Origin: Planctomycetota bacterium
GTDB lineage: Bacteria > Planctomycetota > J058
DNA: 64,000 bases
Direction: 5' to 3'
Assembly: GCA_019636275.1 (NCBI GenBank)
Contig: JAHBXY010000028.1
Span: 1-64,000, forward strand
Shown: positions 57,891 to 62,203 of the stretch, piece after piece
How positions within the stretch are numbered: the first letter of the stretch is position 1
Layout: each line of letters starts with the position of its first letter
Translations under genes and position numbers: made by a program
Notes under the pieces: model-generated
What the model was told of the DNA's origin: nothing
What the model saw: only the letters and a program-made list of their open reading frames with translations
Database searches by the model: none

Positions 57891-58781
57891 TCAGCCCGTC
57901 GGGAGGAAGCGGTCCGTCAGCTCGTCGTCGAGCTCGTCGACCGGACCCGCGTGAGAGGCGACGATACGCCGGTCCACGAGCACGTAGATGCACACCACCC
58001 TGGCGGCGTTCCCGATGGAGCGGCGCGGCCCTCCGAACAGCAGGGCCTCGGCGACCTCACCCTGGGTGTCGGCGACGTGGCGCCAGGCGGCGCGCTTCTC
58101 CGCCAGATAGCTACGCCAGGCGGGGACGTCCTCTGGCGTCACGCTGCCGACACCGACGACCTCCAGGCGCGGGAAGTTCGCGCGCACCCGCGCGAGCCAG
58201 GCCAGCTCCTTCTCGCAGTCGTCCCAGGTGCCGTAGAACATGATGACGGTCCCGCCCGTCGCGACAGGGAGCTCGAACGCCTTGTTCGCCAGGTCGCGGA
58301 CCTCGATCGGCTCGAGGAGCTCGCCGCTCGCGATCACGGCCGGAGTCCCCTCCTCGAACCCCGTCCCGTTCACCAGCCCCAGGTGGACGGAGTGCTCTCG
58401 CCCTCGCGCGTCGCGCGCGCGCACCCAGAGGAGGTCGACGAACGACCAGTCGCGCTGGAGCTCGTCGGCCAGACCCAGCGACGAGACCAGGGCCGCGTCG
58501 ATCGTGATCCCGTGGCGGCCGTCGTCGAGACGGCGCATGGGGCGGGACAGCTCCTCCTTCCCCTTGCGCAGGACCAGCTCGACCTTCAGGTCTCCTTGTC
58601 CCTCCACGCGCGCGCGCACGGGGATCGTCAGGCGCCGGATGACCGTGCCGGGCGCGGGCTCGACCTGGACCACCCGCGGGTCGTCAGGGGGGGAGGCTTG
58701 CGCCGGGCTCGCGGCAGCCAGCAGGGCGCCCACGAAGGCGACGGTGACGTTGCGCAGGGTGCGGTGTCGGTTCGACTTCAC
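57891..58781 (-). CDS. Secreted protein with thioredoxin-like domain having one cysteine
   Basis: 296 residues. Signal peptide (VTVAFVGALLAAASPAQAS), a beta-rich N-terminal domain (VEPAPGTVIRRLTIPVRARV) and a C-terminal thioredoxin-like fold. TVIMFYGTWDDCEKELAWLA sits where TlpA-type proteins have W-C-x-x-C, but only the second Cys remains. VVCIYVLVDRRIVASHAG supplies the last strands and matches the 'voDrdGriv' region. It therefore cannot be a normal dithiol reductase; it may bind peroxide or a partner thiol. GTG 58781 with GGAGGAG 8 nt upstream. Function unknown. Confidence 0.72.
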   Translation of the reverse strand: MKSNRHRTLRNVTVAFVGALLAAASPAQASPPDDPRVVQVEPAPGTVIRRLTIPVRARVEGQGDLKVELVLRKGKEELSRPMRRLDDGRHGITIDAALVSSLGLADELQRDWSFVDLLWVRARDARGREHSVHLGLVNGTGFEEGTPAVIASGELLEPIEVRDLANKAFELPVATGGTVIMFYGTWDDCEKELAWLARVRANFPRLEVVGVGSVTPEDVPAWRSYLAEKRAAWRHVADTQGEVAEALLFGGPRRSIGNAARVVCIYVLVDRRIVASHAGPVDELDDELTDRFLPTG

Positions 58782-58899
58782 GCGGGGGCTCCTCCGGTGT
58801 GCGAGCAGCCGCCCGCACGAAGCGTGCCGGCGCGCGCCCCCGAACGCGGGCGGGTTTGTGCCCCCGCTTCCGCCACATTCCAGACACGTGGCCATCAGG

Positions 58900-59610
58900 T
58901 CACGGTCGTCGAGCGCTGGCCACCAGCCGCGGGAAGAAGTGCGCCGGCTGGCCGCGGCGGCTCGGGTGCTCGATCCAGTAGATCGCCCGCAGGGCCGCGA
59001 ACCACGCCCGCCGCACGGCGCGGTAGGCGATCGTCGCCGGCCGCGCCTTGAAGCGGAACCGCGGGGCGAAGAACCTCACCTCGCCCAGGCCGGCCCGCTC
59101 GAGCACGTAGCGCAGGCTCTCCTCGGTGTAGGCGGCCTGGTGGGTGAAGTCGGCGTAGCGCACGTACACGCCGCGGAACGACACCGCGTGCGGCACCGAG
59201 ACGACCAGCCGCCCGCCCGGCCGCAAGGCCGCGCCCATGAGCCGGACGACCTCGACCACCTGCTCGCGCGACAGGTGCTCGAGGACGTCCTTGCAGAACA
59301 CGACGTCGAAGCGGCCCGCCTGCCCGCGGAGGAAGGCGACGGGGTCGGGCTCGTCATGGACCACGGCCCCGCGCCGGCGCAGGGCGTCGGCCAGGGCCGG
59401 GTCCGGCTCCCAGGCCTCCGGCAGGAGGCCCAGCGCCGCCAGGTGGTCGAGCGCCTGCCCGCGCCCGGCGCCCACGTCGAGGGCTCGGCCGGCCGCCCCG
59501 GCCAGGGCCTCGTCGAACCAGACCGCCAGCCCCTCGCGGGCGTCGGCCTCGTCCTCCTCCTGCGTCCTGGCGAGGTGATCGGCGTAGGCGTCCCGACCGG
59601 GGTCGCTCAT
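58900..59610 (-). CDS. SAM-dependent methyltransferase (class I)
   Basis: 236 residues. Motif I RALDVGAGRGQALDHLA, acidic loop WEPDPALADAL, motif IV FDVVFCKDVLEHLSREQVVE and post-motif RPGGRLVVSVPHAVSFRG are the type 11/23 methyltransferase pattern. The C-terminal part (ARPATIAYRAVRRAWFAALR) is basic. Such enzymes act on small molecules, quinones or glycan intermediates; the substrate is unknown. ATG 59610 (MSDPGRD) fits TACAAT ending 7 nt upstream, so the transcript is leaderless. It shares a compact divergent promoter with the 59640 operon. Confidence 0.9.
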   Translation of the reverse strand: MSDPGRDAYADHLARTQEEDEADAREGLAVWFDEALAGAAGRALDVGAGRGQALDHLAALGLLPEAWEPDPALADALRRRGAVVHDEPDPVAFLRGQAGRFDVVFCKDVLEHLSREQVVEVVRLMGAALRPGGRLVVSVPHAVSFRGVYVRYADFTHQAAYTEESLRYVLERAGLGEVRFFAPRFRFKARPATIAYRAVRRAWFAALRAIYWIEHPSRRGQPAHFFPRLVASARRP

Positions 59611-59617
59611 GGGGGAC

Positions 59618-59631
59618 ATTGTAGGTACGAT
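59618..59631. promoter_or_regulatory. Back-to-back -10 boxes of a bidirectional leaderless promoter
   Basis: ATTGTA (59618-59623), which is TACAAT on the minus strand, and TACGAT (59626-59631) on the plus strand are 2 bp apart. They direct the start codons at 59610 and 59640, 7 and 8 nt away. The two coding regions are 29 bp apart, so any -35 element would lie inside the opposite gene. Confidence 0.65.
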
Positions 59632-59639
59632 CCCGACCG

Positions 59640-59939
59640 ATGACCTGGAACAAGCTCCTGCAGTTGATCGCGAAGGTCTGCGCCGAGCAGGGCGAGGAGC
59701 GGCGCGTGCTGCTCGTCCTGCGCGACGCCAGCTACCACGTGCGCGAGGTCGTCGACCCCGACCCCCCGGGCAAGGAGGGCGTCCTGGCCCTGGTCGTCTA
59801 CAAGGACGACCCGGCGCTCAGCCGCCGCACCGACGACACGCTCCTCCTCTGCGTGCCGCCCGACCGCGTCGAGCGGCTCGTCGTCACCGGCGCCGACCGG
59901 CCGGGCGTCGAGGGGCCGCTCGGGTTCGTGCCGGGCTAG
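59640..59939 (+). CDS. Hypothetical protein preceding an FHA gene, 99 residues
   Basis: MTWNKLLQLIAKVCAEQGEE is a helix; the rest is beta-rich (RVLLVLRDASYHVREVVD, EGVLALVVYKDDPALS, DTLLLCVPPDRVERLVV). No family was recognised. It is 3 bp upstream of a double-FHA protein, so it probably works with it. Expressed from the bidirectional promoter, leaderless. Confidence 0.65.
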   Translation: MTWNKLLQLIAKVCAEQGEERRVLLVLRDASYHVREVVDPDPPGKEGVLALVVYKDDPALSRRTDDTLLLCVPPDRVERLVVTGADRPGVEGPLGFVPG

Positions 59940-59942
59940 CCG

Positions 59943-60605
59943 ATGACCGGCAAGGGGGAGGGCGCCCTGAGGCTCGTCGTCATCGAGGGCAAGGCCAAGG
60001 GGACGCAGGTGCGCCTCGAGCAGCGGCAGGGGCTGGCGATCGGCCGCGCCGCGCCGGCCGACCTCGTCCTCGACGACCCGGCCGTGGCCGACCTGCAGGT
60101 GCGCCTGTTCCGCGAGGCCGCCGGCTGGCTGGCCTTCGACATGACCCCCGGCGGCTTCGTGCACAACGGCGCCCGCACCCAGCGGGCGCAGCTCGCCCCC
60201 GGCGACACCATCCAGCTCGGGTCCCACGTCCTGTGCCTGCTGACGGACGCAGCCGTCCGCGCCGCCGACGCGCCGGCCGAGACCCGCGCCGTGACGCCCC
60301 CGCCGCAGGCCGGCGCCTACCTGCTGGCGACCAAGGGCAACGACGCCGGCAAGACCTTCCCCCTCGGGGTGCGCCCGGCCGTGATCCTGGGCCGCGGGGT
60401 GTCGACCGACATCACGATCTGGGACATCCGCGCCTCGCGCGCCCACGCGCGGATCGACCGCCAGGGCGAGGGCTACACGGTCACCGACCTGAGCTCGTCC
60501 AACGGCACCTTCGTGAACGACCGCCGCCTCAAGGGCACCGTCCCCCTCGGGCCGGGCGACGTCATCCGCATCGGGTCGACGCTCCTCGAGTTCCACCCCG
60601 GGTAG
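59943..60605 (+). CDS. Protein with two FHA domains
   Basis: 220 residues. The first FHA-like half (about 8-105: AIGRAAPADLVLDDPAVADLQ...GGFVHNGART) has lost the Arg-Ser-His pattern. The second half is canonical: ILGRGVSTDITIWD, SRAHARIDR, DLSSSNGTFVNDRRLKG. So one arm binds phosphothreonine and the other may not. It sits just upstream of a cyclic-nucleotide-controlled Ser/Thr kinase gene and is likely part of the same signalling route. Confidence 0.88.
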   Translation: MTGKGEGALRLVVIEGKAKGTQVRLEQRQGLAIGRAAPADLVLDDPAVADLQVRLFREAAGWLAFDMTPGGFVHNGARTQRAQLAPGDTIQLGSHVLCLLTDAAVRAADAPAETRAVTPPPQAGAYLLATKGNDAGKTFPLGVRPAVILGRGVSTDITIWDIRASRAHARIDRQGEGYTVTDLSSSNGTFVNDRRLKGTVPLGPGDVIRIGSTLLEFHPG

Positions 60606-60638
60606 CCTGGTCCCCGCCCCGCGTCATCAGCTGAGGCC

Positions 60639-60746
60639 GTGGGATCCGTCTGCTCGGCCGCCGTTCCTTGCGCTCCGAGAGCTTACGGGTGGCTCGGCGG
60701 CCGAGCATGGGGACCCCCGGCCGGAGTCGGCCCGGCCCGGCCCGTC
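60639..60746 (-). repeat. Family B hairpin element, copy B2
   Basis: Inverted relative to B1. Stem TGCTCGGCCGCCG (60651-60663) / CGGCGGCCGAGCA (60695-60707), loop 31 nt unlike that of B1. The stem pair T-A of B1 is C-G here. The 49 nt block 60698-60746 matches B1. Confidence 0.88.
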
Positions 60747-60790
60747 GAGGCCGTGCGTGAGGCGCATTCCCGGCCGGGCCTCCTGGCGGC

Positions 60791-60796
60791 TACAAT
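60791..60796 (+). promoter_or_regulatory. -10 box of the kinase operon
   Basis: TACAAT at 60791-60796, flanked by GGCGG and CCGCC that can pair. Start site near 60803; leader about 20 nt with a GGGGGGA ribosome site. Confidence 0.5.
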
Positions 60797-60823
60797 CCGC
60801 CGCCGTCCGTCCGGGGGGACCCC

Positions 60824-62202
<1,379 letters not shown>

Positions 62203-62203
<1 letters not shown>

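Follow-up and report, generated by a model that had tools for sequence, protein, structure and literature searches.

How can two divergent genes whose start codons are separated by 29 bp both be transcribed? The question is raised by a methyltransferase gene and a neighbouring operon in the window analysed here, a stretch of 64,000 nucleotides from a Planctomycetota genome. A first-pass annotation had proposed that the two genes are leaderless and share one extremely compact bidirectional promoter. The proposal is examined below in the light of the source genome (G000, of which 1.57 Mb was examined) and one relative of the same genus (G001, 0.70 Mb). Genes in the window, as in both genomes, were called by codon usage, and promoter signals were not used in the calls for G000 and G001.

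Genes and sequence of the junction

The minus-strand gene (58900..59610, 711 bp) encodes a class I SAM methyltransferase (Pfam Methyltransf_23), whose start was taken as ATG 59610. On the plus strand a 300-bp open reading frame (59640..59939) encodes 99 amino acids that match no Pfam family, is conserved in part of the family and is the first gene of an operon. The second gene, 3 nt past its stop codon (59943..60605), encodes a protein with two FHA stretches (Pfam FHA). The earlier description placed the control element between a methyltransferase and an FHA operon; the gene that adjoins the gap is the 99-aa ORF, and the FHA gene comes second. Further downstream of the FHA gene, the protein encoded at 60824-62203 combines an N-terminal cyclic-nucleotide-binding domain with a Ser/Thr protein kinase domain.

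The plus strand from 59604 to 59645 reads CGCTCATGGGGGACATTGTAGGTACGATCCCGACCGATGACC. Within the divergent intergenic gap (59611..59639, 29 bp, assigned to neither strand) the sequence ATTGTA-GG-TACGAT (59618-59631) sets two hexamers back to back, 2 bp apart, forming a 14-bp imperfect inverted repeat. The predicted −10 box of the methyltransferase gene, TACAAT (59623 to 59618, minus strand), starts at −13 and is followed by the seven nucleotides GTCCCCC and then by ATG 59610, while that of the plus operon, TACGAT (59626..59631), starts at −14 and is separated from ATG 59640 by the eight nucleotides CCCGACCG. No Shine-Dalgarno-like (SD) word was found for either gene anywhere in the gap, including between the boxes and the start codons. 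In all these respects the sequence is as first reported: two boxes 2 bp apart, each 7-8 nt before a start codon, with no ribosome-binding site on either side. A scan of 58000-62000 for consensus sigma70 −35/−10 promoters and terminators found no full promoter and no other match, a result that is uninformative because the DNA has a G+C content of about 75%.

The 99-aa ORF has no other upstream start, since its frame is closed by a TAG at 59622. The methyltransferase gene does have an alternative in-frame ATG (59617..59619, minus strand), which overlaps the gene's own −10 box and is also present in G001, where the gene caller preferred this start, 9 bp further upstream. In the alignment the methyltransferase homologues of two other genomes, G005 and G006, begin MSEEG--AYHRHL and MSEA---YRQHL, and on our reading these N-termini appear to fit a start at 59610 (MSDPGRDAYADHL) better than one at 59619.

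A probable leaderless signal across the genome

In the account of Zheng et al. (2011, PMC3160421), the hexamer TANNNT, lying about 12 bp ahead of the start codon, is the mark of leaderless ‘TA-led' genes in high-G+C bacteria. Both genes of the 59610/59640 pair have such a hexamer at about this distance and lack an SD word. In G000, TANNNT peaks at −14, −13 and −12 before called starts. Hexamers starting between −15 and −11 precede 46 of 316 divergent genes (49 sites versus 4.4 expected from positions −80 to −41) and 43 of the 430 same-strand genes whose upstream gap is 20 or more (44 versus 4.3); among operon-internal genes (gap below 20) they precede just 6 of 310. The corresponding counts in G001 are 21/132, 11/176 and 1/101. 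Real starts also differ from decoys, defined as out-of-frame intergenic ATG or GTG codons: the hexamer precedes 64/630 starts versus 17/1514 decoys in G000 (Fisher p = 5e-21) and 28/267 versus 10/666 in G001 (p = 5e-9). When genes are aligned on the hexamer, T, T and G are enriched at −23, −22 and −21 from it, at frequencies of 0.38, 0.22 and 0.52 in G000 (92 genes) and 0.50, 0.34 and 0.66 in G001 (32 genes). This −35 trace at 17-bp spacing is seen in both genomes, in genes that had not been selected for a −35 element.

The position peak, the contrast with decoys and the −35 trace indicate that TANNNT is most likely a −10 box in the two genomes, and its placement just before the start codon would therefore yield leaderless mRNA. 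SD words are frequent too, occurring before 74 of the 316 divergent G000 genes, and both modes of initiation are thus used; none of the counted TANNNT genes carries an SD word, although the two kinds of site partly occupy the same place. Both boxes of the 59610/59640 pair, at −13 and −14, fall inside the genome peak. These statistics support the view, put forward from the window alone, that the two genes are leaderless and preceded by real −10 elements.

The two predicted promoters differ in apparent strength. In a leave-one-out matrix of the −10 box and −35 trace, built from the 92 G000 genes, the plus promoter ranks 3/92 and the minus promoter 51/92, near the median. At a spacer of 17, the plus −35 position is TCGCTC (59603..59608, plus strand), which lies inside the methyltransferase coding sequence and retains the T and G of the TTG trace. 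The expected minus place, AGGTCA (59641..59646, minus strand), lies inside the 99-aa ORF and shows no likeness to TTG. The first-pass annotation held that there is no room for separate −35 boxes outside coding DNA. This was too strong as an argument, since coding DNA can itself hold −35 contacts; the plus side has a partial match of this kind, the minus side none.

Conservation and recurrence of the layout

G001 keeps the layout, and its methyltransferase and 99-aa ORF proteins are 95% and 97% identical to those of G000. The sequence CATTGTAGGTACGATCCCG is kept at 19 of 19 bp, which alone is weak evidence because G001 is a single close relative with about 90% identity around the junction; between the two start codons three bases differ, all of them outside the boxes. 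Among 1056 G000 gene starts examined, 52 could be aligned with G001 sequence across the start, nine of them of the leaderless type. TA...T is kept in 9/9 of these (27/27 key bases versus 68/77 in 29 other non-operon genes), and the six bases after the box are kept at 45/54 positions versus 133/165 in other genes, but the nine are not independent sites because they include both genes of the 59610/59640 pair and both of a second pair at C1:145976. The 99-aa ORF is present in 4 of 58 genomes searched, its own included, and stands ahead of the FHA gene in G000 and G001. It has different upstream neighbours in G003 and G005, and in G005 and G006 the methyltransferase homologue lies immediately behind another coding sequence. 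Among the 58 genomes searched for the ORF and the neighbourhoods seen in G003, G005 and G006, the divergent layout was not found beyond the genus, and it is traceable in only one other genome because the other homologues have different neighbours.

A scan free of start calls sought pairs of divergent TANNNT boxes that both lie 12-15 nt from a start codon. It gave three matches in G000, and all three lie exactly between two called divergent genes. Besides the site in the window they are C1:103189/103225, with 8 bp between the boxes, and C1:145975/146001, with overlapping boxes (AGTATACT). The same scan of G001 also gave three matches, only the methyltransferase/99-aa ORF site being between two called genes; by called starts alone, both boxes occur in 0 of 66 divergent pairs of that genome. 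The extreme compactness claimed for the site holds: its 29-bp gap is one of 6 among 158 divergent gaps in G000 that measure 21-40 bp. Three of these six have both boxes at −15 to −11, one has boxes at −14 and −17, and two have none.

The other compact sites show features of their own. The 25-bp gap at C1:145976-146000, between a glycosyltransferase-like gene and a GDSL-type esterase gene, contains a perfect palindrome that constitutes the overlapping −10 boxes of two leaderless-type genes and is 100% identical in G001. At C1:103190-103224 conservation is confined to the plus side: homology between G000 and G001 breaks off 3 bp ahead of the −10 box belonging to a glycosyltransferase gene, as though that box had travelled with its gene as a unit, without the neighbour and its −35 region. 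The site at C1:149294 was set aside as a fourth full case, as its plus box lies at −17 and about 135 extra bp separate box and gene in G001; in that counterpart the additional DNA, between the divergent promoter and a glycosyltransferase gene, includes the perfect inverted repeat GGACCCGC GAA GCGGGTCC. Pfam assigns four of the five neighbour genes of the other pairs to glycosyltransferases and a GDSL-type esterase and nothing to the fifth. No function common to these genes and the methyltransferase-FHA pair therefore emerges.

Three of 158 divergent pairs in G000 fully, and a fourth nearly, show this arrangement, which extrapolates to about 20 per genome. On these grounds we suggest, tentatively and with slightly less than even confidence, that the genus may possess recurrent minimal divergent elements: start codons 25-36 bp apart, −10 boxes that adjoin or overlap, two leaderless genes, and upstream contacts in the first codons of the other gene, with promoter and coding sequence mutually constraining. 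The pairs are not in excess over independent pairing of leaderless genes (3 seen versus 3.35 expected among the 158 divergent pairs of G000), and the back-to-back site is therefore to be regarded as a recurrent local layout rather than a special device.

Three other explanations of the junction were weighed. The near-median score of the minus promoter and its lack of a −35 match, together with the conserved ATG 59619, would suit an arrangement in which the plus box alone works, with TACAAT incidental to the dyad-like sequence and the methyltransferase start at 59619 or elsewhere. This is unlikely in view of the position of the minus hexamer at −13, within the genome peak, its lack of change in G001, and the family homologues that begin at the 59610 position. 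The imperfect inverted repeat could instead suggest that a dimeric regulator uses ATTGTA-GG-TACGAT as its operator, the promoters being elsewhere. We consider this highly improbable: ATYGTANNTACRAT occurs once in the whole 9.33-Mb G000 assembly, the 17-mer is found only once even when up to two mismatches are allowed, and the other compact pairs display the same geometry with different sequences. A recurring operator in particular is unlikely, and was set aside, because the dyad stands alone in the assembly.

It is just as improbable that the hexamers arose by chance in a short gap and that the transcripts of both genes begin at leadered promoters deeper within the adjacent gene. Chance does produce the motif, as four order-2 Markov sequences of G000 length (1.57 Mb) contained 3, 2, 0 and 3 copies irrespective of genes. 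The evidential weight consequently lies not in the motif itself but in its precise coincidence with two called starts. For TANNNT in any five upstream positions the background rate is 0.0139 per gene, or 1.9e-4 for both sides by chance, which predicts 0.03 pairs with both boxes among the 158 divergent pairs, against the three seen; all three motifs in G000 are so placed. Moreover, neither gene of the 59610/59640 pair has the SD word that a leadered mRNA would use.

Proposed mechanism and relation to known systems

The reading we favour, and consider likely on the sequence evidence, is that the 29-bp gap holds two overlapping divergent sigma70-type promoters, each initiating at or 1-2 nt from a start codon, and that the methyltransferase gene and the 99-aa ORF-FHA operon are both leaderless. 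The minus transcript would be expected to start at A59610, as no other purine lies close to the usual distance, and the plus transcript at G59639 or A59640. The plus side would be aided by the partial −35 element within the first methyltransferase codons, whereas the minus side would essentially be a −10-only promoter. If both boxes work, the 29-bp gap forces the polymerase-covered stretches of the two promoters to overlap, given the footprint size that we assume. From the size of the polymerase we infer that one enzyme at a time would occupy the site, which would matter only if one side were strongly active. Mutual exclusion, as proposed in the first-pass annotation, thus follows from the geometry and is sterically plausible, but a regulatory role is not implied because bidirectional promoters in Escherichia coli show little competition at basal activity. 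As described in PMC12825309, at none of the five promoters tested was basal transcription high enough for the two directions to compete, but a strongly activated side can repress its counterpart.

The original observation is therefore confirmed and its interpretation largely correct: the parts are ordinary, their arrangement is unusually tight and no new mechanism is revealed, making the site a neat conserved example rather than a new kind of system. Should the proposed reading hold, it would show how little DNA a functional divergent control region in bacteria can require, and the sequences would point to leaderless genes being widespread in an uncultured genus of Planctomycetota, where they would make up roughly one promoter-proximal gene in ten. 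Such sites would also provide clean cases for polymerase competition at back-to-back −10 boxes and for −35 contacts that constrain the first codons of a neighbour.

Overlapping divergent promoters with one leaderless gene are familiar from lambda PRM/PR and Tn1721 tetR/tetA. The junction described here differs: leaders seem to be lacking on either side, and neither a regulator nor an operator is evident. It resembles the TA-led genes of PMC3160421, as characterized there, in the TANNNT hexamer about 12 bp upstream, the free middle three bases and the lack of an SD word, but differs in having two such genes head to head in one 29-bp gap. The word Planctomycetes is absent from the main text of that paper, and among titles and abstract openings no papers were found that treat leaderless promoters placed back to back or that map leaderless starts in Planctomycetes. 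In the E. coli class of Warman et al. (2021), as cited in PMC12825309 and PMC10268837, one −10 element is shared and the starts lie mostly 18, but also 10 or 23, bp apart. The site in the window is like these promoters in that a short quasi-symmetric DNA would be expected to load polymerase in either orientation. A shared-box promoter at 59611-59639 was nonetheless rejected, as the boxes do not overlap: there are two separate boxes 2 bp apart, with predicted starts about 30 bp apart and no predicted leaders. The C1:145976 pair, unlike 59610/59640, does share its box (AGTATACT) in the manner described for the Warman-type promoters.
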